This document shows, in pieces, positions 586 through 17,343 of a DNA stretch of 23,076 bases. Made by a program: the position numbers and the translations under genes. The notes beneath the pieces are model-generated. The model saw nothing but the letters and a program-made list of their open reading frames with translations. It searched no databases and was not told the DNA's origin. The stretch spans positions 1 to 23,076 of the IMG/VR virus record IMGVR_UViG_3300043775_002937; one strand, written 5' to 3'. Each line of letters starts with the position of its first letter. Positions within the stretch are counted from its first letter, which is position 1. This stretch comes from a virus.

Positions 586-644
586 ATCTTACAGGTACCA
601 CCGAGAATGGCAACCATCAGCCAATGTGTTGTATCGGTACAACA
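586..644 (-). promoter_or_regulatory. Promoter module P1 with upstream dyad
   Basis: Read on the minus strand, TTGCCA (608-613) and TAAGAT (586-591) are 16 bp apart, and CCTG directly precedes the -10 box. The dyad TGTTGTATCGGTACAACA (627-644) has 7-bp perfect arms and lies 13 bp upstream of the -35 box. It overlaps the last codons of the gene at 617-793. It should drive the GP88 gene. One of seven such modules in 1-3650. Confidence 0.75.
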
Positions 645-793
645 TAGCCCGCGGTGGTGTAGAATGAACCAGCACCACCGGGCACCAAGGACAATTCTAG
701 TATATCTCCAGCCACCGAGACAATCCAGAATTCGGAGCCTTTACACTGCACCTGAGTTCCGATATACCGCACCTGTATTCCGACCTTATACAT
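617..793 (-). CDS. Small phage protein, 58 aa, unknown function
   Basis: The ATG at 793 follows a strong ribosome binding site, GGAGG with 5 bases between. The 58 residues begin MYKVGIQVRYIGTQVQCKGS and are rich in valine, glycine and alternating beta-type residues, which suggests a small beta-barrel fold; this is inference. A longer frame open to 1033 exists, but it would overlap the gene at 807-1049, and the Shine-Dalgarno supports the shorter start. The gene starts 13 bases after the stop of the upstream gene, so it is third in a short operon (1231 down to 617). Its last codons overlap the dyad of module P1. Confidence 0.75.
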   Translation of the reverse strand: MYKVGIQVRYIGTQVQCKGSEFWIVSVAGDILELSLVPGGAGSFYTTAGYVVPIQHIG

Positions 794-806
794 TCCAACC
801 CTCCTA

Positions 807-1049
807 TCAGTATGCATACACCGAAAAGCATACAGCATCCGCCCGAGTACAATCCAACTGGCGTAGAAAAGGGCTCCGATCCAGTCTATGCTTTCGAGGA
901 CCACGCCAGCGGAGTTTATAGTTCCGCCCTTTATATCGCGCCTTGAATTCATCCAGATATTGAATCGGAATATGCTCGAACACCAAAGCCTGTGATTTAC
1001 CCCAGGCCAGAATATCTGCCCGGTGAGGTGCATAGACTGAAAAGTCCAT
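807..1049 (-). CDS. Small basic phage protein with RGPR motif, 80 aa
   Basis: The ATG at 1049 overlaps the stop of the previous gene (TAATG arrangement), so translation is probably coupled. The C-terminal half has a pattern I recognise from small phage and mobile-element proteins: an LRWRGPRKH block, then a cysteine-alanine-aspartate stretch and a terminal aromatic FSVYAY. It is basic overall. Function is not known. The competing frame (617-1033, same strand) is rejected over this stretch because it lacks a Shine-Dalgarno at its own first ATG and this frame carries the family-like pattern. Confidence 0.75.
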   Translation of the reverse strand: MDFSVYAPHRADILAWGKSQALVFEHIPIQYLDEFKARYKGRNYKLRWRGPRKHRLDRSPFLRQLDCTRADAVCFSVYAY

Positions 1050-1231
1050 TAGACTCCACTCCTTTCGATTATCTCCAAAACAATCGAAAATTGTTTATCG
1101 GACAAGTGCCCGGTCCTGTTGTATTGTTCCAACATCTTGCCAGCGAAGATATTATCTCGCCGAGGCAGGCTGGAAATAACCTGCTCAAGGAGAGCCATGG
1201 CTTCGAATTGTTCCTCAATGAAAATCAACAC
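1049..1231 (-). CDS. Small phage protein, 60 aa (GTG start) or 71 aa (ATG start)
   Basis: Two starts are possible. The GTG at 1231 follows GAAGGA at good spacing and gives 60 residues beginning MLIFIEEQFEAM. An in-frame ATG at 1264 gives 71 residues, but it lies only 7 bases after the -10 box of module P2, so it would be almost leaderless. I prefer the GTG. The protein is acidic in front, with an IEEQFEAMALLE helix and a conserved-looking LSDKQFSIV segment near the end. It is the first gene of the operon 1231-617 and overlaps its successor by the TAATG junction. Function unknown. Confidence 0.7.
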   Translation of the reverse strand: MLIFIEEQFEAMALLEQVISSLPRRDNIFAGKMLEQYNRTGHLSDKQFSIVLEIIERSGV

Positions 1232-1271
1232 CGTTTTTCCTTCGTTGGTTGCTTCGCTCAACATGTTGCCA

Positions 1272-1330
1272 AGTATACAGGGGCCAGAGGGTATGGCAAA
1301 CAAGGGAAAAACCGTTGTATCCGTGCAACA
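1272..1330 (-). promoter_or_regulatory. Promoter module P2 with upstream dyad
   Basis: Minus-strand TTGCCA (1294-1299), a 16-bp spacer containing CCTCTGG and ending in CCTG, then TATACT (1272-1277). The dyad CGTTG-N8-CAACA (1313-1330) starts 13 bp upstream of the -35 box, as in P1. It drives the operon 1231-617. Confidence 0.75.
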
Positions 1331-1361
1331 AGGAGAATGCTACCGCCCGGCTCAGCCACAG

Positions 1362-1575
1362 CCCTAGTGCCTGAAGGTGTGGAGTACGCTAGGGGTAGTG
1401 TACCGCTTCGCCCCGTCGCTGCACTTGTCGCGGAACGGTGCTAGTGGGTGGATGAGAATCATTCTCAGCCGCAGGCAGAACCTTTCAGCCAACCTTAGCC
1501 CGAGCACCAGAGGCGCTCAAAAATCCGAACGATTCCTAGCGTCTCCAGGCGCCTCAGAGGACCGCAGGAAGGTCC
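1362..1575 (-). ncRNA. Candidate structured RNA: abutting perfect stems, no supported gene
   Basis: No convincing gene lies between 1265 and 1846. Inside that gap I find consecutive perfect inverted repeats that almost abut: CCCTAG 1362-1367 with 1389-1394; CCGC 1403-1406 with 1430-1433; GGTGCT 1437-1442 with 1503-1508; GAGGCGC 1510-1516 with 1549-1555; GGACC 1559-1563 with 1571-1575. The 72-base GGTGCT unit is tRNA-sized but has no T-loop motif. Module P3 points into the region from the right, so the minus strand is the likelier transcript, though the stems exist on either strand. No U-tract terminator was seen. Calling it an RNA gene is inference from structure. Confidence 0.35.
1453..1467. 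promoter_or_regulatory. Fur-box-like palindrome
   Basis: TGAGAATCATTCTCA is a perfect 7-1-7 palindrome and closely resembles known Fur operators of proteobacteria. It lies inside the 72-base stem unit at 1437-1508, so it may instead be an RNA hairpin. No promoter overlaps it. Resemblance only. Confidence 0.3.
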
Positions 1576-1622
1576 CAGTACCATTCCAACATTCCGTCGA
1601 TCCTGGCGCGATCCTGCCAGTT

Positions 1623-1684
1623 TGTTGTATCCACACAACATCGCACCGCATTGGTTGCCTCTATGGCGCTCCGCATGTTACAAT
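1623..1684 (+). promoter_or_regulatory. Possible plus-strand promoter with dyad
   Basis: The dyad TGTTGTATCCACACAACA (1623-1640) has the same shape as those of the minus-strand modules. Downstream on the plus strand, 14 bp on, are TTGCCT (1655-1660) and, 18 bp later, TACAAT (1679-1684) with TGT before it (extended -10). It would transcribe antisense to the P3 region. No plus-strand gene follows. Confidence 0.3.
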
Positions 1685-1707
1685 GGTCCAAACGTTTCGC
1701 GCCGGAG

Positions 1708-1725
1708 TGTTGTGTGGAAACAACA
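1708..1725. repeat. Extra dyad of the TGTTG-N8-CAACA family
   Basis: TGTTGTGTGGAAACAACA has perfect 6-bp arms and the 18-bp size of the promoter-linked dyads. No -35 or -10 box of the module type lies on its minus-strand side. It sits just downstream of the possible plus-strand start near 1691, where a bound protein could block transcription; that is inference. Confidence 0.5.
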
Positions 1726-1737
1726 AATTGGCGTCAA

Positions 1738-1791
1738 GCAGGGGCGGATTAGAGCCTCGGTGCGCCAGTGCTATGGACTGAATTCTACAGG
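1738..1791 (-). repeat. 54-bp perfect direct repeat, copy A
   Basis: Positions 1738-1791 and 2360-2413 are identical over all 54 bases. Each copy covers the -10 box of a promoter module (P3 here) and roughly the first 37 transcribed bases. Within it CAGT/ACTG and GGCG/CGCC can pair on the minus strand. Confidence 0.9.
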
Positions 1792-1840
1792 TACCAGAGC
1801 CGGTGGCAACCAGCCCTGGACCTGTTGGCTTTACGCAACA
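1782..1840 (-). promoter_or_regulatory. Promoter module P3 with upstream dyad
   Basis: Minus-strand TTGCCA (1804-1809), 16-bp spacer ending in CCTG, TAGAAT (1782-1787). The dyad TGTTG-N8-CAACA (1823-1840), extended to CCTGTTG/CAACAGG, lies 13 bp upstream. It fires into the 1265-1780 stretch that has no supported gene. A 13-bp direct repeat (GCTTTACGCAACA at 1828-1840 and 1844-1856) duplicates one dyad half and contains the stop codon of the upstream gene. Confidence 0.7.
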
Positions 1841-1846
1841 GGCGCT

Positions 1847-2053
1847 TTACGCAACATCCCATTCCGTGTCAGGGAATTCCGTCTCATAGAATGCATGGAG
1901 CATAGTGTCGATCCACTCCATGTAGGCCATCTCGGCTTCCTGTTCTGCTACCTGCTCCGCAATCTCGCGGCACTCTCGGTTAGCCTCTTCCATTCTCACC
2001 TCTTCGGTTGGTTGGTCGTGGTAGAATCGGTCGGAATCATTAGGCGAAAGCAT
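1847..2053 (-). CDS. Acidic helical phage protein, 68 aa
   Basis: The ATG at 2053 follows GGAG with 7 bases between and gives 68 residues beginning MLSPNDSDRF. A longer frame from 2074 lacks a good ribosome binding site. The gene overlaps the end of its upstream neighbour (stop at 2040), so the two are probably translated together. The middle is a glutamate-rich helical stretch of EEANRECREIAEQVAEQEAE type, likely a short coiled coil. The protein is strongly acidic. I do not recognise the family and infer no function. Confidence 0.65.
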   Translation of the reverse strand: MLSPNDSDRFYHDQPTEEVRMEEANRECREIAEQVAEQEAEMAYMEWIDTMLHAFYETEFPDTEWDVA

Positions 2054-2282
2054 ATTCAGTCTCCAGATGGTCAAGTAGATTCCAAAGGTCTTGAAGCCCT
2101 TCCACGTCGCTTAAGGCTTGCTGGTAGACTTCGTTCGAACCAGGTTGGCCACTAAACCTGTAGGACTCGGCTAGGGACCGACGATATTCCATCTCACGCT
2201 CCAGACGGTCCTTATCAAGGACCAGACGGAGGGCGGCTGCGGTACGTAGGTTCATCGTGCTATTCGCTTTCATCGTTGACAT
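2040..2282 (-). CDS. Small helical phage protein, up to 80 aa
   Basis: Three in-frame ATGs are available: 2282, 2273 and 2255. The one at 2282 begins about 7 bases after the -10 box of module P4, so its message would be leaderless or nearly so; the one at 2255 gives 71 residues starting MNLRTAAALRLVLDKD. No strong Shine-Dalgarno precedes any of them. The frame extends upstream to 2435, but that part crosses promoters P4 and P5 and is not believable. The sequence is rich in charged helix formers and ends ETEYAFA. Function unknown. The stop overlaps the next gene. Confidence 0.65.
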   Translation of the reverse strand: MSTMKANSTMNLRTAAALRLVLDKDRLEREMEYRRSLAESYRFSGQPGSNEVYQQALSDVEGLQDLWNLLDHLETEYAFA

Positions 2283-2288
2283 GCGCAA

Positions 2289-2347
2289 AGTATACAGGAG
2301 CCAGAGGCGGTGGCAAGAGGGGCTCGAACCGTTGTATGGGCGCAACG
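2289..2347 (-). promoter_or_regulatory. Promoter module P4 with upstream dyad
   Basis: Minus-strand TTGCCA (2311-2316), 16-bp spacer with CCTCTGG and a final CCTG, TATACT (2289-2294). The dyad CGTTG-N8-CAACG (2330-2347), extended to CCGTTG/CAACGG, is 13 bp upstream. It drives the genes at 2282-1847. Confidence 0.75.
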
Positions 2348-2359
2348 GATTAATAACGC

Positions 2360-2413
2360 GCAGGGGCGGATTAGAGCCTCGGTGCGCCAGTGCTATGGAC
2401 TGAATTCTACAGG
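2360..2413 (-). repeat. 54-bp perfect direct repeat, copy B
   Basis: Identical to 1738-1791. It covers the -10 box of module P5 and the start of its transcript. Between this copy and P4 there is no gene, so P5 and P4 are in tandem with a short leader between them. Confidence 0.9.
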
Positions 2414-2462
2414 CACCCCAGAGGCTGGCAACCAACCCCTGGGGTGTTGCATTAATCCAACA
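2404..2462 (-). promoter_or_regulatory. Promoter module P5 with upstream dyad
   Basis: Minus-strand TTGCCA (2426-2431), 16-bp spacer ending in CCTG, TAGAAT (2404-2409). The dyad TGTTGCATTAATCCAACA (2445-2462) is 13 bp upstream and overlaps the stop codon of the gene at 2452-2670. Confidence 0.7.
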
Positions 2463-2670
2463 GGACCATGTACTCTTTCGGAAAGTACCGACGGAACCAA
2501 TCCAAGCCCTTCCGCATGGTCTTATAGTCCCCGAACCGTTCGCACCCTATGATGGTGTCATATACGGCTACGGCGTCAGGAGGAAGGGTTACCGACTCAC
2601 CCGTGAAACGGTTGGCGATCACCTCTGGTTCGGTGCCCAGGATGCATTGAAAGGGAAGCTTGCGGCTCAT
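2452..2670 (-). CDS. Small phage protein, 72 aa
   Basis: The ATG at 2670 overlaps the stop of the upstream gene (ATGA) and follows GGAGG at 7 bases, so this start is well supported. The N-terminal half reads as a short beta region, with VTLPPDAVAVYDTIIG in the middle, and the C-terminal half is an amphipathic helix (MRKGLDWFRRYFPKEY). Small proteins with this YDTIxG-then-basic-helix look are common in early regions of phages, but I do not know a function. It is last in the operon that begins at 3155; module P5 begins within its 3' end. Confidence 0.75.
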   Translation of the reverse strand: MSRKLPFQCILGTEPEVIANRFTGESVTLPPDAVAVYDTIIGCERFGDYKTMRKGLDWFRRYFPKEYMVLLD

Positions 2671-2876
2671 TGTAGGACCTCCATAATTTTATCATCGTCA
2701 ACCAGCAGGATATCCGCTGGCTCGGTACGCCAGCGCATGGCCAACGGTACGTCCAACTTGATTCGGTGCTGCACAGCCCCACCATACTTTACACGGGACT
2801 CCAGCACCATACCGGTGAGAGGCATATCCACCAGATAGGTAGCCCGGACTCGCTTACCTTCAAGATTCCAGGTCAT
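2667..2876 (-). CDS. Conserved phage beta-barrel-type protein, 69 aa
   Basis: The ATG at 2876 has AAAGG 8 bases upstream; a GTG at 2885 is the alternative, but it overlaps that ribosome binding site. The protein begins MTWNLEGKRVRATYL and continues with a GMVLESRVKYGGAVQHRIKLDVP block, a pattern I associate with a family of small SH3-like proteins in myoviruses. The C-terminus is acidic (LLVDDDKIMEVLQ). Function is unknown; the fold is inference from the strand pattern. It is closely packed between neighbours, with an ATGA overlap downstream. Confidence 0.75.
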   Translation of the reverse strand: MTWNLEGKRVRATYLVDMPLTGMVLESRVKYGGAVQHRIKLDVPLAMRWRTEPADILLVDDDKIMEVLQ

Positions 2877-2881
2877 ATCGA

Positions 2882-3067
2882 TCACCTTTCGCTGGGTTGG
2901 ATGCTGGTGAAGACCACGCCAGCGGCATCATAGAATTGGTCGTAATCGAATCGCGGATTAAACTTGCCAACCGCATGGGCTACAGCCACGGCGGCTTGCA
3001 ACCGCGCATGGGGGTCCATAATGCACCGGATGGAATCTGCTAGGGCTTCGAAGTGTTTTTTCGTCAT
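2882..3067 (-). CDS. Small conserved phage protein, 61 aa
   Basis: Translation from the ATG at 3067 gives a 61-residue protein starting MTKKHFEALADSIR and containing KFNPRFDYDQFYDAAG. This KKHFEAxA ... FNPRFDxxxF pattern recurs in very small proteins of phages and integrative elements. Function unknown. The upstream frame open to 3109 covers the end of another small gene and is not used. The Shine-Dalgarno is weak. The stop TGA lies 5 bases before the next start. Confidence 0.75.
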   Translation of the reverse strand: MTKKHFEALADSIRCIMDPHARLQAAVAVAHAVGKFNPRFDYDQFYDAAGVVFTSIQPSER

Positions 3068-3077
3068 GGTGTTTTGC

Positions 3078-3155
3078 TCAGATGGAAAAGGCGACAATGG
3101 CGACCGCACCGGTCAGAAGGAGGAAGAGGTCAAAGGCTTTGTCTAGGATGCTCAT
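3078..3155 (-). CDS. Membrane microprotein, 25 aa
   Basis: A 26-codon frame from the ATG at 3155 to the TGA at 3078 encodes MSILDKAFDLFLLLTG followed by AVAIVAFSI. It is one predicted transmembrane helix with a short charged N-terminus. It fills the space between module P6 and the next gene, ends 10 bases before that gene, and would be the first gene transcribed from P6 (-10 box ends at 3190). The Shine-Dalgarno is poor. The position and the hydrophobic run support it; chance cannot be excluded at this length. Confidence 0.5.
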   Translation of the reverse strand: MSILDKAFDLFLLLTGAVAIVAFSI

Positions 3156-3189
3156 CGTTTCGCTTTCGTTTCGTTTCAGTATGGAATGG

Positions 3190-3236
3190 AGTATACAGGG
3201 GCCAGAGGTTGTGGCAAGTGTTGCATCCTTACAACA
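3190..3236 (-). promoter_or_regulatory. Promoter module P6, dyad moved closer
   Basis: Minus-strand TTGCCA (3212-3217), 16-bp spacer with CCTCTGG and a final CCTG, TATACT (3190-3195). The dyad TGTTGCATCCTTACAACA (3219-3236), extended to AGTGTTG/CAACACT, begins only 1 bp upstream of the -35 box instead of 13. A 27-bp stretch (3173-3199) is identical to 3576-3602 of P7. Confidence 0.75.
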
Positions 3237-3239
3237 CTA

Positions 3240-3338
3240 TCACGGCCTCCAGATAAACAGGTCAAGTACCGCAACCAGGGCTACCAAAATGTAGGTGGCG
3301 ACCATCGCATAGGGATACAGGTTTTCGAATCGGCTCAT
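3240..3338 (-). CDS. Membrane microprotein, 32 aa
   Basis: The ATG at 3338 follows CAGGAG at good spacing and the frame closes with TGA at 3240. The product begins MSRFENLYPYAMVATY and continues into a hydrophobic helix with final LFIWRP, so it is probably a single-pass membrane protein. It starts 3 bases after the stop of the gene at 3342-3563, forming a two-gene operon from module P7. Its stop is directly next to the dyad of P6. Function unknown. Confidence 0.65.
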   Translation of the reverse strand: MSRFENLYPYAMVATYILVALVAVLDLFIWRP

Positions 3339-3341
3339 GCT

Positions 3342-3563
3342 TTACTCCTGGCTGGCGTGGGCTTGCATCCGCTCTACTACCTCAGCCATCACCTTAGGGT
3401 TGGACGCCATCAACCCTGCTAGGAAGGACTCAAGATAGCCCAGACTGTAGGCGTTCACCTGATCAATCTCGGTGGTGTTGATGCTTTTGGACGCCTTGCG
3501 CTTAACGCCAAGGACGAAGGTTTTCGAGAGGGAATCTGCTAGTTCACGTTTCGCTTTGCTCAC
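3342..3563 (-). CDS. Small basic phage protein, 73 aa (GTG start)
   Basis: The start is a GTG at 3563 with GGAG 6 bases upstream and a leader of about 22 bases from module P7. The protein begins MSKAKRELADSLSKTF, is lysine-rich in the first third, and then forms an amphipathic helical region (YLESFLAGLMASN, VMAEVVERMQAHA). I do not recognise a family. It is the first gene of the GC-rich block in transcription order and is followed immediately by the membrane microprotein at 3240-3338. Confidence 0.7.
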   Translation of the reverse strand: MSKAKRELADSLSKTFVLGVKRKASKSINTTEIDQVNAYSLGYLESFLAGLMASNPKVMAEVVERMQAHASQE

Positions 3564-3592
3564 TGTTTTCTCCGTGTTTCAGTATGGAATGG

Positions 3593-3651
3593 AGTATACA
3601 GGAGGTGGTGCTTGTGGCAACAATGTGGGGTGGTGTTGTTTTTTGGCGACA
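3593..3651 (-). promoter_or_regulatory. Promoter module P7 with degenerate dyad
   Basis: Minus-strand TTGCCA (3615-3620), 16-bp spacer ending in CCTG, TATACT (3593-3598). The dyad TGTTG-N8-CGACA (3634-3651) is 13 bp upstream but has one mismatch. It is the last module before the AT-rich part of the window and drives 3563-3240. Confidence 0.7.
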
Positions 3652-3664
3652 GCTTAAAATTAGG

Positions 3665-3715
3665 GGGCCAGTTGCGTAAAAATTACGTGGTGTAAGTAAT
3701 TTTGTGCTATGGCCC
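3665..3715. repeat. Nested hairpin in the boundary region
   Basis: GGGCCA (3665-3670) pairs with TGGCCC (3710-3715), and inside it AAAATTAC (3679-3686) pairs with GTAATTTT (3696-3703) around a 9-base loop. On the minus strand the outer arm is followed by CCCTAATTTT, so a weak terminator for the genes to the right is possible. No gene lies in 3652-3814. Confidence 0.5.
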
Positions 3716-3741
3716 AAACTCTTTTTTTTAAAAATTTATTT

Positions 3742-3803
3742 TCTGGGGCCCCTCACAAATTTTCGATTTTTCCTAACATGGAATTTTTTTCAGGGGCCCC
3801 AGA
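3742..3803. repeat. 12-bp perfect inverted repeat around a 38-base AT-rich loop
   Basis: TCTGGGGCCCCT (3742-3753) and AGGGGCCCCAGA (3792-3803) are perfect reverse complements. Each arm contains the self-complementary GGGGCCCC. The loop is A/T-rich. It lies just after the stop of the gene at 3815 in transcription order. Neither strand has a clean U-tract directly after the stem, so a plain intrinsic terminator is not the obvious reading. Confidence 0.7.
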
Positions 3804-3814
3804 GCAGCCCAGAG

Positions 3815-4033
3815 TTATTCAGCGGAAGCTACATCACCCATCAGCATTTCACCAGAGACATGTTCGGCGACGAGCAGTTCATTTCCTTTTTCTTCGGCTT
3901 TCTCTACTGTTGAGAATGCTCCAGCCATTACTGCGAGTTCACCATTGATAAATTCTACTACATACGTACCATTCACATCTTGATAGATTTTGCAGGTTTT
4001 TGTTTCGGTTGAGATATCGTTAACTTCGGTCAT
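3815..4033 (-). CDS. Hypothetical phage protein, 72 aa
   Basis: The ATG at 4033 follows AGGAG. The protein is acidic and contains CKIYQDVNGTYVVEFINGE, which looks like a short two-strand beta hairpin, and then a helical AFSTVEKAEEKGNELLV stretch. I do not recognise a family. It is the last gene of the AT-rich part in transcription order, 12 bases after the gene at 4046-4243 and just before the structured boundary at 3665-3803. Confidence 0.7.
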   Translation of the reverse strand: MTEVNDISTETKTCKIYQDVNGTYVVEFINGELAVMAGAFSTVEKAEEKGNELLVAEHVSGEMLMGDVASAE

Positions 4034-9592: not shown

Positions 9593-10681
9593 TTATTTGA
9601 TAATCCTGACAAGAATAGTATCAGAATTAATTCTTCCTGTCAATGTCTGTTCGACTGCATTGATATTACTCAAAAATTTACGGAGTGTAACTTTACCAGC
9701 TTTGATAAGTTCTGGAAGAGACACTTCAGGCTTTCTAAGAGTTTTTTGTACAGATGTTGATTCGTTGAAATTAATGATTGTAGTGCCCTTTACCGAAAGC
9801 CCAGCATCGTCGATTGAATTGTATACACCGACCTTACGAGTCTTTGTACTAAACACCCAAAGTTGAGTGCAGCCTACAATATCCGCTGGGTTCACCGATG
9901 CGACTTTGTATTCTGAGTCTTCTTTTTTGAATTGCAATTTCGAAATCACTTTATCGACAGGCTTAGCTTTTTTCTTTCGAGGAGCCCGTGTCAACTTGTT
10001 TACATGAGTGATTCGTTCTGCATCAGAAATGATTCTTTTAAGATATGCAAGATATTGTTTGAGTTCACTTTTCGAAAAGTTTGAATAACCTTCAATCAAT
10101 TGCGAATCTTTACTTGAAAGCACTTCTTCAAATTCAGATACACGACTCTTAAAAAAGGAAATGATATGATTGGCGTGAACACCTTTTACGGAGAGTGTTT
10201 GCATGATTTCATACGGATCAACTGCATCAAAATCACGAACAGAAAAACAATCGTCGATGACGCTTTCAAGTTCACCAATTATTTCTTTTGATTTTTCTTG
10301 AATGCGGTCTTGAATTGAAATTGTTTTAACTTCTTCTGTCTTTACTTTTACAGCAGGTTTAATTTTCTTTGAGATAGATTCAATTGTCGTATCAATCCAT
10401 TTCTGATTATTTTCAGTAATTGGACCGCCACGCATTTTAATACGGCAAACAAAACCAAGATTTGAAAAAAGGTCCTCTGGAGCCTTTTCGATCAAATCGA
10501 GTGTTTCTTTTTTGGTTTTATTTTCTTTGAGATATTGAATAGTGTACTTTTTACTATCTTTTGAATCTGAATGATAGTTGTACCAATTCAATGCTTTGAC
10601 AATAGATGATTCGCCATTCTTCCAGGTAGGTTCACCACCTGAAAGTACCTTTTCATAATCTTTAACGGATGTGAGTCTCAT
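9593..10681 (-). CDS. Conserved T4-like phage protein, 362 aa, unknown function
   Basis: A long protein with no recognised catalytic motif. The N-terminal part (MRLTSVKDYEKVLSGGEPTW, then ALNWYNYHSDSKDSKKYTIQ) and a central coiled-coil-like helix (NFSKSELKQYLAYLKRIISDAE) lead to a basic segment (TRAPRKKKAKP) and a C-terminal beta-rich domain (DIVGCTQLWVFSTKTRKVGV). I associate this layout with proteins of T4-like phages of aquatic bacteria, where no function is assigned. The ATG at 10681 overlaps the upstream gene by 20 bases; the Shine-Dalgarno is weak. Position next to RNase H could hint at DNA metabolism or a virion role; unresolved. Confidence 0.8.
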   Translation of the reverse strand: MRLTSVKDYEKVLSGGEPTWKNGESSIVKALNWYNYHSDSKDSKKYTIQYLKENKTKKETLDLIEKAPEDLFSNLGFVCRIKMRGGPITENNQKWIDTTIESISKKIKPAVKVKTEEVKTISIQDRIQEKSKEIIGELESVIDDCFSVRDFDAVDPYEIMQTLSVKGVHANHIISFFKSRVSEFEEVLSSKDSQLIEGYSNFSKSELKQYLAYLKRIISDAERITHVNKLTRAPRKKKAKPVDKVISKLQFKKEDSEYKVASVNPADIVGCTQLWVFSTKTRKVGVYNSIDDAGLSVKGTTIINFNESTSVQKTLRKPEVSLPELIKAGKVTLRKFLSNINAVEQTLTGRINSDTILVRIIK

Positions 10682-10940
10682 TTTTAGTTACAGTCTTTAC
10701 AGAGTCAATACGGAATGAACGCCAACCATTGCTTTCTACGTCCCATACAGATATGGTATTAGGATTTTCAGCTTTTGGCAAGCTTTCTGTCAAAAGTTGT
10801 TGCTTTTCTGCAACAACTTGTGGAATGTATTCCGGGAGCAACGTACAATTCATTACTCTTTCTGTTCCGTCAACCTTCGTGAAAACAACAGTAACAACCG
10901 AATTCTGCAAAACTTCTTTAAGTTCATACTTATTTAACAT
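10662..10940 (-). CDS. SH3-like phage protein, DUF2693-type, 92 aa
   Basis: The ATG at 10940 has AGGA 8 bases before it; an ATG at 10955 would add five residues. The sequence shows VVTVVFTKVDGTERVMNCTL, then LPEYIPQV, and later ISVWDVESNGWRSFRIDSVK. This is the pattern of the small DUF2693 family of T4-like phages, which is thought to have an SH3-like barrel. Function unknown. It overlaps the upstream gene by 11 bases and the downstream one by 20, so the group is tightly coupled. Confidence 0.8.
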   Translation of the reverse strand: MLNKYELKEVLQNSVVTVVFTKVDGTERVMNCTLLPEYIPQVVAEKQQLLTESLPKAENPNTISVWDVESNGWRSFRIDSVKTVTKNETHIR

Positions 10941-11307
10941 TTTCACGTTCCTCATAGTTTTTAATACAAGTAATCATATTTTCATTAATTTCATCGAAAA
11001 CTTCTTTCATGTAGTCATCAGAGGTGTCTGTTGCTCGCACAACAACACCAAGAAAACCACTTTCAACCATTCTTTCCACATAATCTAAAGGTGAAGTTAA
11101 TATTGCTTGAAATCTTTCGGGCAAAGAAGGTTTTTTGTTTACATCAGGAAATATAATAATATCATACAAATCACCCATTGGCGAGCCGTCTTTTTTATTA
11201 CCTGTTTTTATTAGTTTAAATGCCGAAATGTTAATTGATTGATTGTCTTGACGATAAAAATCAACACCATCATATAAACTAGGATCAATCCTTTTTAAGT
11301 CTGTCAT
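10930..11307 (-). CDS. Hypothetical phage protein, 125 aa
   Basis: The ATG at 11307 follows AAAAGG and overlaps the upstream stop at 11304 (ATGA-type junction). The protein has NISAFKLIKTGNKKDGSPMG and LYDIIIFPDVNKKPSL strands, then a helix-rich C-terminal half (ERFQAILTSPLDYVERMVES, EVFDEINENMITCIKNYEE). No family recognised. It lies between the GIY-YIG nuclease gene and the DUF2693-type gene. Confidence 0.7.
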   Translation of the reverse strand: MTDLKRIDPSLYDGVDFYRQDNQSINISAFKLIKTGNKKDGSPMGDLYDIIIFPDVNKKPSLPERFQAILTSPLDYVERMVESGFLGVVVRATDTSDDYMKEVFDEINENMITCIKNYEERENVK

Positions 11308-12300: not shown

Positions 12301-13308
12301 TCAATTTTTAATTTGCGACCATACACGTTTGCGAATTTCGTTTTGCAGAGACTCTGGTAGGTGAACATAGTCCAATTCTTCGCTCATTTTGGAGCCATTC
12401 TTAAACGCCCAATCGAAGAATTTTAGTACATCATCACTGGCCTTCTTGTCTTTGGGTTCCTTGTACATAATAATAAAACTTGCTGTGCTGATAGGCCAAG
12501 TATTTTTTCCTGGTTGTTCAACAATGCTTAGTCCCATACCTGGAACACTAAACCAATCTGCACCAGCAGCAGCGGCAGCAAATGCGGTATCATCGGGATC
12601 TACAAAAACACCATCTTTGTTTTGCAATTTCATATATGTCATGTTGTTTTTCTTAACATATGCATATTCAACATAACCAATCGAACCTTTAATTCTATCA
12701 ACATTTGCTGCAACGCCTTCATTACCTTTACCACCAACTGAGCTTGCGCCTGGCCATTTTACAGCAGCACCACGCCCAACTTTTTCTTCCCATTCTTTAC
12801 TTACAACAGTCAAGTAGTCGGTGAAGTTAAATGTGGTGCCCGATCCATCTGCTCGGTGAACTACAGTAATTGCAGAATTCGGAAGATTTTTTCCTGGGTT
12901 TAATTCTCTAAGTTGAGGATCGTTCCAACGAGTAATTGTACCCATAAAGACTCTTGCAAGGACTTGACCAGTAATCTGCAATTCGCCAGGTTTAAATCCA
13001 TCTAAATTGACGATTGGCACTGTGCCACCAATGATTGCAGGAAATTGTACCTGGCCTCTCTTTTCCAACTCATCTCCTTTTACAGGTGCATCTGATGCAC
13101 CAAATGTAACTGTACCGGAGTTAATTTGTCGAATGCCACCTGAACTGCCGATGCTCTGATAATTTAGACCTACGCCTGTTTCTTTCTTGTAAGCTTCAGC
13201 CCATTTTGCATAAATGGGATAAGGAAATGTGGCTCCTGCGCCGGTAATAATCTGCGCATTTAGTGACAACGAAAAAGTAGCAATCAATAAAAATAATAGT
13301 TTCTTCAT
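12301..13308 (-). CDS. pstS: PstS-like periplasmic phosphate-binding protein, 335 aa
   Basis: Substrate-binding protein of the PstSCAB phosphate ABC transporter. The ATG at 13308 follows GAAAGGAAAAAA and gives a cleavable signal peptide (MKKLLFLLIATFSLSLNAQ). The phosphate-site signature is intact: ITGAGATFPYPIYAKWAEAY, YQSIGSSGGIRQI, TFGASDAPV and HRADGSGTTFNFTDYL. Length agrees with bacterial PstS. The frame can be extended to 13425, but that overlaps nrdB and loses the signal peptide at the N-terminus. Phages of phosphorus-poor waters carry this gene as a host-derived auxiliary gene. It would work with the host PstCAB, whose genes are not here. It lies directly after nrdB, with no space for a Pho box. 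Confidence 0.95.
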   Translation of the reverse strand: MKKLLFLLIATFSLSLNAQIITGAGATFPYPIYAKWAEAYKKETGVGLNYQSIGSSGGIRQINSGTVTFGASDAPVKGDELEKRGQVQFPAIIGGTVPIVNLDGFKPGELQITGQVLARVFMGTITRWNDPQLRELNPGKNLPNSAITVVHRADGSGTTFNFTDYLTVVSKEWEEKVGRGAAVKWPGASSVGGKGNEGVAANVDRIKGSIGYVEYAYVKKNNMTYMKLQNKDGVFVDPDDTAFAAAAAGADWFSVPGMGLSIVEQPGKNTWPISTASFIIMYKEPKDKKASDDVLKFFDWAFKNGSKMSEELDYVHLPESLQNEIRKRVWSQIKN

Positions 13309-13324
13309 TTTTTTCCTTTCAAAA

Positions 13325-14314
13325 TTAAGCGGCTTTCCCCCAAACTTCGTCCCATGTTCCAGACAATGCACCCTTTGCATAATCAGTAGCACGATTTTCA
13401 AAGAAGTTAGTATGTGTCGGAGCATTAATCATTTCTTCGACCCAAGGCAATGGATTCTTTTTCACTTTCATTATGCCCTTGAGACCAAGACTAATAAGGC
13501 GACGATCAGTAATGTAACGAATATAGGTTTTAACGTCATCAGAAGATAGATTATGCATATCGCCCATGCCGAATGATAAATCAATAAAACGATCTTCGAG
13601 GTCAACCATTCTTGTTGCAATAGTGTAGATTTCAGATTTGAGAGTATCGTTCCAAATTTCACGATTTTCCTCTATGTAGGTTCTAAACAATTTAATCATT
13701 GACTCGGCATGCATAGTTTCATCAACAATCGACCAAGTTACGATTTGACCCATACCTTTCATTTTTCCTTGACGCGGAAAATTCAGCAGCATAATAAATG
13801 AACTAAACAATTGCATACCTTCAGTAAAAGCGGAGAATAATGCAATATTTTTTGCTACAGATGATGTGTTCACTAAGCTATTAGATTGATTCAAAACGTA
13901 ATCATGTTTATCACGCATCTCTTGATATTCAAAGAATTGATTATATGTAGTTTCTGGTAGCCCAAGAGTTTCAATCAAATGACTATATGCAGCAATATGT
14001 AAAGCTTCTCGCGCAGCAAAACCAGATAACATCATACGAATTTCAGGCTGAGGAAAATGAGGTAAGTAATTACGGACGTAACCGCCAGCAACATCAATAT
14101 CTCCCTGCGTAAAAAATCTAAAAATATGCGTAAGAAATTCTTTTTCATTTTGTGTCAACTTGTTTTTCCAATCTTTAACATCTTCGATCATTGGAACTTC
14201 AGTGTGTAGCCAATGACTTTGTTCATGTTTAAGCCATGAATCATATGCCCAAGGATATGTGAAAGGTTTAAAATAATTTCGTTCATCTGTTAGTTTTAGT
14301 TTCTTTTTAACCAT
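13325..14314 (-). CDS. nrdB: Ribonucleotide reductase class Ia, small subunit NrdB, 329 aa
   Basis: Beta subunit that holds the di-iron centre and the tyrosyl radical for NDP reduction. The ligands are visible: D72 (by spacing), E103 and H106 in AREALH, the radical tyrosine Y110 in HIAAY, E165 in FTEGMQLF, and E199 and H202 in DETMHAES. All residues of the iron site and the tyrosine are present, so a canonical class Ia enzyme is expected. Its ATG at 14314 overlaps the thioredoxin gene by 8 bases, so thioredoxin, nrdB and the upstream nrdA are one operon. Confidence 0.95.
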   Translation of the reverse strand: MVKKKLKLTDERNYFKPFTYPWAYDSWLKHEQSHWLHTEVPMIEDVKDWKNKLTQNEKEFLTHIFRFFTQGDIDVAGGYVRNYLPHFPQPEIRMMLSGFAAREALHIAAYSHLIETLGLPETTYNQFFEYQEMRDKHDYVLNQSNSLVNTSSVAKNIALFSAFTEGMQLFSSFIMLLNFPRQGKMKGMGQIVTWSIVDETMHAESMIKLFRTYIEENREIWNDTLKSEIYTIATRMVDLEDRFIDLSFGMGDMHNLSSDDVKTYIRYITDRRLISLGLKGIMKVKKNPLPWVEEMINAPTHTNFFENRATDYAKGALSGTWDEVWGKAA

Positions 14315-14552: not shown

Positions 14553-16340
14553 TTATCCTTCGCAAGCTAAACAGTTATCACCTTCTGCTAATGCTTTCAA
14601 ATCAACTTCTTGAATAATCTTTCGTTCAATTCTATTAGATACTTTATCAGCCTTAGCTAACTTCTCACTACGACAATAATATAAAGTCTTCAGCCCTTGT
14701 TTCCATGCCTGAAAGTGTACAGCATGGAGATATTTAATGTCTACATCTGGTCTGAAAAAGAGGTTAATGGATTGCGCTTGGTCAATGAAACTCTGTCGGT
14801 GACTTGCGTGTTCCACAATCCATCGCTGGTCAATCTCCATAGACGTTTTGAATACGTCTTTTTCCCAGTCAGATAGTATGCTAAGGTGCTGAACTGATCC
14901 GTCGTTTGCAATAATACTTGACCAGATGTCTTGGTAGTCCACTGATTGTTCATCAACCTTCTCCTTGATAATTTTATCCAGAAACTTATTCTTATTCAGG
15001 AAAGATCCCGATAAAGTATCTTGACGATAAGCATTAGCGCGATAAGGCTCAACGCTAGGGCTGGTATTACCCATAATAATAGATGAACTTGCATTGGGAG
15101 CAATAGCCATAAGATGGGCAAAACGATTGCCAGAGCCAGCGCAATCAGGGGCTTCACCTCGTTCAGTACCCAATTGTTTATTTGCAACATCAAGTTTACC
15201 TCTTATATTATTAAAGATTTTTTTATTCACACCAACTGCTAGTGATGATTCCCAAGGTATGTTTTTCTTTTGTAGATATGCATGAAAACCGAGGGCACCA
15301 ATACCAATAGAGCGTTCCATAGAAGCAGAATATCTTGCTCGTGAAATGCTATCAGGAGCATTATCAATGAAATACTGTAGAACGTTATCAAGCATCTCGG
15401 CCACGTCCCGAAGAAAAAGTTCGTTATCTTTCCAATCATCATAATACTCCAGATTTAATGAGGACAAACAACATACTGCGGTTCGATTTTTATCTGTTGG
15501 CAATACAATCTCACTACAAAGATTGGATTGTTTAATCGATAGACCCTTTTCTTTTTGATACCAAGGCAAGTGACGATTGCTTGTATCAATGAAGTGAATG
15601 TAAGGTTCACCGGTGAGCATTCTCGTTTCAAGAATTTTTTGCCACAGTTCTCTGGCTGAAACTGTGTCTCTAACTTCACCATTATTTGGATCAACTAGAT
15701 TCCAAGAATCATCAGCACTTGAATCTAGCATACACTTCTCAATAATCTGCATAAAATCATCAGTGATATTAATACCATGATGCAGATTTAATGCTCGCAT
15801 ATTAGGATCGCCTGTTGGTTTCCGCATTTCAAGGAAGAGATGAATATCAGGGTGGGAAACATTAAGATATGCAGCATAAGAACCGCGGCGAGTGCGACCT
15901 TGACGATATGCCAACGAGGAGGCATCGTAAGTACGAAGGTGAGGCATAATGCCAACAGACTTGTCATCAGCAGAACGTATTCCAAGACCAATTCCAATTC
16001 CGCCTCCTAACATTGATAGCCAGTTTACCTCTGAAAGACAGTCCACCAAACCTTCTGCACTATCATGTAAGTACGGTAGAAAACATGAAATAGGCAGGCC
16101 ACGACGAGAACGCCCAAAAGACAAAATGGGAGTAGAATAACTGAGCCAATGCTGACTGCTGTACTCATATAACCTTTGAGCGTGTTCCGGCGAGGAAGAG
16201 AATGCTTTTGATACATACGCAAACCTATGTTGTGGTGATGTTTCGTTTTCCATCATATAGGATTCTTGCAATCTTTTTATTCCAAGAGTGTCGAATAAAC
16301 TATCCCTGCTTAAATCTATGTTAATACCCAAATACTGCAT
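14553..16340 (-). CDS. nrdA: Ribonucleotide reductase class Ia, large subunit NrdA, lacks ATP cone, 595 aa
   Basis: Alpha subunit that reduces NDPs to dNDPs. Active-site residues are in order: C86 (PISCF), N273-C275-E277 (QSNLCSEIV), the second redox cysteine C290 (TAVCCLSSLNL), the radical-transfer tyrosine pair in LKTLYYCRSE near 555, and the C-terminal redox pair C590/C593 (CLACEG). The protein starts near the 10-stranded barrel (MQYLGINIDLSRDSLFDTLG) and is about 150 residues shorter than E. coli or T4 NrdA: the N-terminal ATP-cone is missing, so dATP feedback at that site should be absent. The ATG at 16340 follows AAGGAAAAACC. It lies between the MazG-like gene and the thioredoxin. Confidence 0.95.
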   Translation of the reverse strand: MQYLGINIDLSRDSLFDTLGIKRLQESYMMENETSPQHRFAYVSKAFSSSPEHAQRLYEYSSQHWLSYSTPILSFGRSRRGLPISCFLPYLHDSAEGLVDCLSEVNWLSMLGGGIGIGLGIRSADDKSVGIMPHLRTYDASSLAYRQGRTRRGSYAAYLNVSHPDIHLFLEMRKPTGDPNMRALNLHHGINITDDFMQIIEKCMLDSSADDSWNLVDPNNGEVRDTVSARELWQKILETRMLTGEPYIHFIDTSNRHLPWYQKEKGLSIKQSNLCSEIVLPTDKNRTAVCCLSSLNLEYYDDWKDNELFLRDVAEMLDNVLQYFIDNAPDSISRARYSASMERSIGIGALGFHAYLQKKNIPWESSLAVGVNKKIFNNIRGKLDVANKQLGTERGEAPDCAGSGNRFAHLMAIAPNASSSIIMGNTSPSVEPYRANAYRQDTLSGSFLNKNKFLDKIIKEKVDEQSVDYQDIWSSIIANDGSVQHLSILSDWEKDVFKTSMEIDQRWIVEHASHRQSFIDQAQSINLFFRPDVDIKYLHAVHFQAWKQGLKTLYYCRSEKLAKADKVSNRIERKIIQEVDLKALAEGDNCLACEG

Positions 16341-16349
16341 GGTTTTTCC

Positions 16350-16685
16350 TTATACAAACAATTCTAGTTGTGGTGGTTTCCATCCTTCTGGCTTCAAAAC
16401 TTTACCATCATCACGTTTTTTAACTTTGCCCGTCACAGGATCTATTTTAGACAAATTTGAATCGGCAACTTCTTTCCACGCTCCTTCTACATTATAACCT
16501 CTCATGTAACAATAACCTAATACAACCCAAATTAGATCCATACATGCATCCAATTCTTCGGTCCTTTGAGAAGAATTCATCAATTCAGTATATTCTTCTG
16601 TTATCAATTTCAAATAAAGATTCACGTTTTCAAGTGTCTTTTTTTGCTCACAAGCTTCAATAAATTTAACCACATCATTATACAT
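16350..16685 (-). CDS. MazG-like nucleotide pyrophosphohydrolase, 111 aa
   Basis: All-alpha NTP pyrophosphatase-like protein. The ATG at 16685 has AAGGAG at 7 bases. The motif KLITEEYTELMNS followed by RTEELDACMDLIWVVLGYCY matches the E-E-x-x-E ... E-x-x-D metal site of the MazG/HisE-like fold. The C-terminal part has DPVTGKVKKRDDGKVLKPEGW, a pattern typical of phage members. It may hydrolyse a non-canonical or regulatory nucleotide; the substrate cannot be told. The gene overlaps the end of thyX by 8 bases. Confidence 0.85.
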   Translation of the reverse strand: MYNDVVKFIEACEQKKTLENVNLYLKLITEEYTELMNSSQRTEELDACMDLIWVVLGYCYMRGYNVEGAWKEVADSNLSKIDPVTGKVKKRDDGKVLKPEGWKPPQLELFV

Positions 16686-17343
16686 TAACAAACTCCTTAA
16701 TCATTGGGAAAATAGGCTCAAGTGCATTTGCACAAGCAAGTGCTATTTCACGATGTTCTTTTTGTGTCCCGTTTGCAGAGCGGAGTTGTATGTAGTGAAC
16801 CCAGGACCTAATAGTTCCTGCCATATAAATTCTAGATACTGTTATTTCAGGTAGAACACCTCTTGCTTGCTCCTTTGCAATACCTTTATCGATAGCCCAT
16901 TCATAAGCACTTTTTGCCTCCGTAAGAACTCTTTGTTGCATCATCTCCCATTGATAAGCAAGCTGCCTTTCCTTGTCGTTATTGAAATCAATTTCTACAG
17001 AGTTTTGCCTATTTTTCGTATCTTGCAATCTTGCTTCTTTTAGTTTAAATCCCATATCAGCTACCGCATATCGCTGACTAAACTCTTGAAAAGAGAAAGA
17101 ACGATGCCTGATGATTTGTCTTGCAATATCTCTTGTTGTATTGATTTCAAGACAAGCGGAAACCATTTCAAGAGGAGACCAGTGATTATTTTTAATCAGA
17201 TAACGAACTAACTTTTCTGCTGTTGCATCGTTGTTTTGATTAGATGGATTTGAGACTCTTGCAACAAAAGCAATTTGTTCCAATAAATTTTTACCATCTT
17301 CACCTCTTGAGTAACTAATTAACTTTACTAAATTTTCTTCCAT
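16678..17343 (-). CDS. thyX: Flavin-dependent thymidylate synthase ThyX, 221 aa
   Basis: Makes dTMP from dUMP with methylene-tetrahydrofolate and FAD. The ThyX signature RHRxxSxxxxSxR is present as R79-H80-R81, S84, S89 and R91 (RHRSFSFQEFSQRY). The nearby NNHWSPLEM block and the C-terminal SWVHYIQLRSANGTQKEHRE also fit. Length is normal. The ATG at 17343 overlaps the primase gene by 16 bases. T4 itself uses ThyA-type synthase, so ThyX here is typical of other T4-like groups. Confidence 0.95.
   Translation of the reverse strand: MEENLVKLISYSRGEDGKNLLEQIAFVARVSNPSNQNNDATAEKLVRYLIKNNHWSPLEMVSACLEINTTRDIARQIIRHRSFSFQEFSQRYAVADMGFKLKEARLQDTKNRQNSVEIDFNNDKERQLAYQWEMMQQRVLTEAKSAYEWAIDKGIAKEQARGVLPEITVSRIYMAGTIRSWVHYIQLRSANGTQKEHREIALACANALEPIFPMIKEFVNV

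Follow-up and report, generated by a model that had tools for sequence, protein, structure and literature searches.

We analysed a 23,076-base IMG/VR fragment of a T4-like phage (IMGVR_UViG_3300043775_002937; the whole fragment is called the window here), in which a block at positions 586-3651 carries seven minus-strand promoters, each preceded by a dyad of the form TGTTG-N8-CAACA. We lean, narrowly, towards the view that the seven sites belong to a clade-wide class in which a near-consensus sigma-70 promoter is joined to an upstream operator, and in which a winged-helix protein coded by the phage (family A1) would bind the operator as a dimer and contact RNA polymerase. The action of a symmetric, dimeric DNA-binding protein at these promoters, which a preliminary description of the block had proposed, is well supported by the sequence comparisons, because the arms of the dyad are conserved without pairing covariation, the dyad is placed strictly upstream, its helical phasing was seen in two sets of loci and a candidate phage protein is at hand.

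Seven promoter-dyad pairs in the window

In all seven promoters, TTGCCA is separated by exactly 16 bp, the last four of which are CCTG, from a -10 box that reads TATACT in four cases, TAGAAT in two and TAAGAT in one; CTCTGG is present in five of the seven spacers. The dyads at these promoters are exact in four cases, with one mismatch in two and two mismatches in one. The gap between dyad and -35 box is 13 bp at six promoters and 1 bp at the promoter at 3217. If transcription is assumed to start 7 nt past the -10 box, the dyad centre lies at -56.5 for a gap of 13. The preliminary description had given the seven pairs, the spacer, the -10 variants, the gap of 13 in six and a centre at about -56, and was accurate in all main points.

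The first promoter (3593-3620, minus strand as all that follow, TATACT) has the dyad TGTCGCCAAAAAACAACA at 3634-3651, with one mismatch and a gap of 13, and this dyad is identical in loci L005-L008. The second (3190-3217, TATACT) is the one with a gap of 1, its dyad TGTTGTAAGGATGCAACA at 3219-3236 being exact; L005 and L007 also have a gap of 1, with another dyad centre. A gap of 13 is found at all the remaining promoters, namely the third (2404-2431, TAGAAT; exact dyad TGTTGGATTAATGCAACA at 2445-2462), the fourth (2289-2316, TATACT; dyad CGTTGCGCCCATACAACG at 2330-2347, with two symmetric mismatches), the fifth (1782-1809, TAGAAT; exact dyad TGTTGCGTAAAGCCAACA at 1823-1840), the sixth (1272-1299, TATACT; dyad TGTTGCACGGATACAACG at 1313-1330, with one mismatch and with a gap of 24 in L005) and the seventh (586-613, TAAGAT; exact dyad TGTTGTACCGATACAACA at 627-644), which lies upstream of a GP88-like gene. 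Three further minus-strand dyads, at 1117-1134, 1623-1640 and 1708-1725, have no matching promoter, and the latter two are also present in contig G009. The earlier statement that every small operon of the block is controlled together was too strong, since these three dyads are promoterless and the promoters at 2404 and 1782 are followed by a conserved non-coding leader instead of directly by a coding frame. One more dyad, at 10798-10815 of the window, lies within a coding frame (open reading frame (ORF) 10662-10955) with TTGCCA at a gap of 16 on the minus strand; an equal or near-equal dyad was found in G004, G008, G009 and G010.

Recurrence, placement and helical phasing

The CTCTGG form of the promoter was found in five other IMG/VR contigs, some of which carry more copies past the point where the window ends. 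Proteins 100% identical to those of 11 window ORFs are encoded by G009 and proteins 72-100% identical by G008; G007 and G005 share many window genes, most at 52-79% identity. A widened dyad-promoter pattern was detected in 38 IMG/VR stretches and a still wider one in at least 120, while a permuted palindrome, scanned for in the same way, gave 9. The dyad-promoter pair is neither local nor a product of chance, and the link between the dyad and TTGCCA boxes, on which the preliminary description had staked its proposal, held when other genomes were examined. The T4-type capsid gene gp23 was present in 9 of 20 larger carrier contigs. By gp23, the nearest cultured relatives were Methylophilales phage Melnitz-3, Stenotrophomonas phage DLP6, Pelagibacter phage HTVC008M and Synechococcus phage S-SKS1; searches of these four found no dyad and no promoter of the strict form, and a DNA-level search against cultured phages gave no match.

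The placement of the dyad (at most one mismatch) was examined at 72 distinct promoters from 14 related contigs and the window. A dyad was located within 35 bp upstream at 57 of the 72, in the next 36 bp at two and downstream at none, and nine other arrangements of the arm letters gave 0 or 1 in the same test; since these contigs had originally been found via the dyad or the promoter, the fraction with a dyad is no census. For the 99 non-redundant promoters of the dyad-ascertained set, the gaps showed peaks at 3-7, 13-16 and 24-28 bp, with R = 0.41 at a period of 10.5 bp (n = 100, Rayleigh p ~5e-8), a value reached by 0 of 5000 smoothed resamples. Similar results were obtained with a second set of 69 loci, gathered by the winged-helix protein alone, after contigs that also occurred in the first set had been taken out. 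Here the peaks were at 3-6, 14-17 and 26-30 bp (R = 0.74, n = 26, p ~8e-7), and a promoter was present within 70 bp downstream at 47 of 60 dyads, compared with 4% of random positions. Class-wide, the gaps cluster near 6, 15 and 26 bp and form several registers one helical turn apart. The fixed spacing first described is therefore a property of the window's lineage, with a gap of 13 and also of 1 and 24 bp, and does not extend to the class as a whole.

The dyad as a DNA site

The consensus of the sites was TGTTGY-N6-RCAACA, with flanks that carry almost no information. Since GTTG and CAAC were demanded by the search, free estimates are limited to the outer and inner positions. Position 6 was C or T and position 13 A or G in more than 95% of the sites, so that the central eight bases, previously taken to be free, are constrained at their edges. 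These two positions are not paired, as the combination C6-A13 occurred 71 times and C6-G13 20 times, and the covariation test gave pairing near or below expectation at 1-18, 6-13 and 7-12. The hairpins that the dyads could form were weak (mean -4.2 kcal/mol), no T run followed them (2.6 T in 9), and a terminator search detected no terminator-like site on the seven promoter dyads of the window. On these grounds an RNA hairpin or terminator was rejected. The arms, whose fixed sequence had been noted before, are conserved in sequence and not in pairing, which together with the lack of a terminator points to a symmetric DNA-binding protein.

A candidate winged-helix protein

Clustering of 2,964 ORFs from dyad loci yielded one family of 107-180 residues, A1 (an example member is L014:656-1024). 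Of 35 dyad-bearing contigs, 23 had it, always as a single copy, and among these were all 11 tested contigs of at least 100 kb; it was not found in the four cultured gp23 relatives, which themselves lack the dyad. When 80 loci were collected by A1, the commonest of the 1024 N8 palindromes in them was TGTTG-N8-CAACA, with 92 copies against a median of 0 for all of them, and the arm spacing of 8 stood alone (92 versus 1-14 for other spacings). The second commonest N8 palindrome near the A1 gene was CCACA-N8-TGTGG, with 40 copies (L223-L302). Ten more contigs of 108-180 kb that were found via A1 held 3-12 dyads apiece, whereas a reversed-pattern control scored 4 in G446 and 0-1 in each of the other nine; one 106-kb contig with an A1 protein has a single dyad. 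Among gp23 relatives without A1, the three largest (83, 56 and 112 kb) had 0-1 dyads and a 32-kb fragment had 3. When four dyad genomes were compared with three dyad-less ones, 16 ORFs, of which 15 were distinct, proved to be confined to the dyad genomes, and among these 15 distinct genes A1 was the only plausible DNA-binding protein by sequence. A DsbA-like protein and RegA were set aside as other candidates, since T4 has proteins of both kinds that are known from phages lacking the dyad.

The AlphaFold model of A1 is a winged helix with a predicted local distance difference test (pLDDT) score of ~80-96 over the ordered domain and a disordered tail, and it contains the helix-helix-recognition helix-beta hairpin succession of a winged-helix domain. 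Foldseek matches in the PDB were mostly winged-helix DNA binders. An RLST motif in helix 3 was invariant across three divergent A1 subfamilies, and the arms of the dyad were likewise invariant. The best viral match of A1 was an unnamed phage protein, 72% identical. The first A1 member had no PHROGs match at E 0.01; for another, the best PHROGs E-value was 0.0048, and no match was annotated as a transcription regulator. Neither tblastn against cultured phages nor a PDB sequence search gave a match. No MotA match was obtained among A1 members in Pfam; a PF09114 search of whole contigs gave no match anywhere, controls included, so that it does not speak to the absence of MotA. In G007 and G005, which are syntenic with the window block, the A1 gene is itself preceded by a dyad at a gap of 13 and TTGCC(A/G)-N17-TATAAT, and dyads lie 74-97 bp upstream of the A1 gene in G002, G014 and G028. 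A1 is the best candidate for the protein that binds the dyad.

Leader, near-repeat and setting of the block

A conserved non-coding leader, CCATAGCACTGG-N4-CCGAGGCTCTAATCCRCCCCTGC, directly follows both TAGAAT promoters and was also found in L005, L010, L012, L020 and L061. Its two copies in the window lie on the minus strand at 2360-2403 (here CCATAGCACTGG-N4-CCGAGGCTCTAATCCGCCCCTGC) and 1738-1781. The leader was almost invariant across lineages with differing flanks. It had no Rfam or tRNA match, and the fold alignment showed no covariation in favour of a structure; it may be a small RNA or serve as a regulatory leader. Each copy is part of a 134-nt near-repeat (1709-1842 and 2331-2464, 78%) that contains dyad, promoter and leader. 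A GTTCTTTAAAAA stretch, which we take to resemble boxA, the antitermination signal found in the rRNA leaders of bacteria, was observed ~10-25 nt after dyad promoters in L096, L112, L147, L158, L102, L092 and L159.

Small genes of unassigned function make up the block, which lies next to conserved phage genes in a plastic part of a T4-type phage genome. At its edge, around 3500-4000 of the window, the G+C content drops from more than 50% to ~40% or less. An assembly chimera at this step, near 3.66 kb, was rejected, because the edge promoter with its upstream flank was found in four other contigs and the block is also syntenic in G007 and G005. Elsewhere in the window, inspection by eye suggested a PstS-like phosphate-binding protein (12301-13425), small and large subunit-like ribonucleotide reductase proteins (13325-14314 and 14553-16340; the small subunit alone was compared) and a ThyX-like protein (16678-17343). 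In the bacterial genome G074, TTGTTGC-type dyads stand ~26 bp upstream of TTGACA promoters (L201, L202), in the neighbourhood of an AAA ATPase gene and of a gene that codes for a recombinase-like protein.

Proposed mechanism and alternatives

From these data we infer that A1 binds the dyad and contacts polymerase. Early transcription would start on the host polymerase, and the A1 product would then reset all dyad promoters together. An A1 dimer would occupy the TGTTGY-N6-RCAACA dyad upstream, on a helix face fixed relative to RNA polymerase, and would touch the polymerase, most simply at its alpha C-terminal domain or at sigma region 4. The dimer would thereby set the output of all small early operons jointly and, in the nearest relatives of the window, that of its own gene. 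The confinement of the sites to upstream positions and their preferred helix face, both of which are found with class I-type upstream regulators, suggest a protein that acts by polymerase contact. Activation is somewhat favoured over repression by the position of the dyad alone; repression is not much less probable, because the core promoters are strong and the A1 gene has a site of its own.

Several findings weigh against A1 in this role. The Foldseek E-values against the PDB were weak, the best being 0.08. A dyad lies directly upstream of the A1 gene in just 5 of 79 loci. The window, G009, G004, G008 and G010 are fragments without an A1 gene, and the 88-kb fragment G019 has dyads and no A1 copy. 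The co-occurrence of A1 with the dyad may partly reflect shared ancestry, as the carriers are all related T4-like phages. The registers of the window's lineage (1, 13 and 24) are ~2-4 bp off the main phase of 6, 15 and 26, and core promoters already near consensus speak against strict dependence on an activator.

The same A1 protein and site might instead serve early shut-off, with the protein returning to hold the polymerase or block its escape, in the manner of phi29 p4 at promoter A2c; we regard this as a serious but somewhat unlikely possibility. The promoters are strong alone and must fire with the host polymerase only, and the dyad ahead of the A1 gene in G002, G005, G007, G014 and G028 would fit negative feedback. 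Many repressor sites, however, overlap or follow the core promoter, and no dyad does so. The phi29 p4 protein represses early A2c and activates A3 via polymerase alpha (PMC4461284), and as a precedent for activation and repression alike it makes either sign conceivable here. We doubt, more firmly, that the dyad is the target of a host transcription factor and that the phages copied the site of a host regulon so that their early genes are read at once. Such a factor would suit early promoters, which have to work before phage proteins exist, as well as the lack of the dyad in cultured T4-like relatives on other hosts and the boxA-like GTTCTTTAAAAA stretch after some dyad promoters. However, a dyad with a TTGACA promoter was found in just 6 of 398 Pseudomonadota genomes, a sample that may not include the true host; the 6 matches from the genome-contig scan had scattered gaps, and the phage A1 gene tracks the dyad closely.

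Two further explanations do without a dedicated regulator of this kind. An architectural or UP-element-like role, with polymerase alpha itself reading the dyad, would agree with the position of the dyad at -45 to -70 and its A/T-rich centre, but symmetric invariant arms with G/C at a separation of exactly 8 bp are unlike an UP element, and we consider this very improbable. Still harder to credit is a promoter-early stem-loop (PeSL) cassette, in which an early promoter would be preceded by a terminator whose stem-loop is the dyad, with the repeats serving gene shuffling. The T4-like phages, the plastic block of small genes, the repeated early promoters and the 134-nt near-repeat (78%) are what such cassettes would lead one to expect; the weak hairpins, the missing T run, the lack of pairing covariation and of a terminator at the seven promoter dyads are not, and helical phasing would be meaningless for a terminator.

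Comparison with known systems

Beyond T4 and its close kin, the timing of pre-late transcription in T4-like phages is largely uncharted. For the clade studied here, the analysis supplies a well-defined type of promoter, an operator that can be read from the sequence and one candidate protein of ~107-180 residues, and early genes could then be marked by sequence alone in hundreds of metagenomic phage contigs.

PeSL elements, which are described in part in a paper that cites the original work (PMC4503421), occur in T4-type phages. The window block shares with them the repeated strong sigma-70-like early promoters and the plastic surroundings in such a phage, whereas its upstream element is a sequence-conserved DNA dyad and not a terminator stem-loop. 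With regard to PeSL recombination, one 134-nt near-repeat was seen in the block; exchange between its copies would be a step beyond the sequence. T4 early promoters, which use UP elements and TGn (PMC2988021), resemble the block in being strong sigma-70 promoters with extra conserved upstream sequence but lack a dyad operator. CRP-type class I activation is similar in the upstream location on a preferred helix face, with dyad peaks near -59 and -70, and differs in recognition sequence and protein; dyads also lie near -49 and -44.

The phi29 p4 protein offers a likeness to the action proposed for A1, being phage-coded, located upstream of the -35 box, in touch with polymerase alpha and able to act with either sign (PMC4461284). 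Unlike p4, A1 gave no family match, is linked to many promoters in several registers, belongs to T4-like phages and is modelled as a winged helix. T4 middle promoters, controlled by MotA/AsiA, parallel the proposal in that a phage DNA binder would control a set of sigma-70 promoters before the late stage. In T4 the MotA box has its centre at -30 and takes the place of the -35 element (PMC2988021), whereas all seven promoters of the block keep a -35 hexamer, with the dyad upstream of it between -45 and -70. We consider the chances evenly balanced that a large uncultured T4-like clade runs its early operons by a regulon of its own under an undescribed winged-helix family, with helically phased operators upstream of intact sigma-70 promoters, unlike the MotA/AsiA system.

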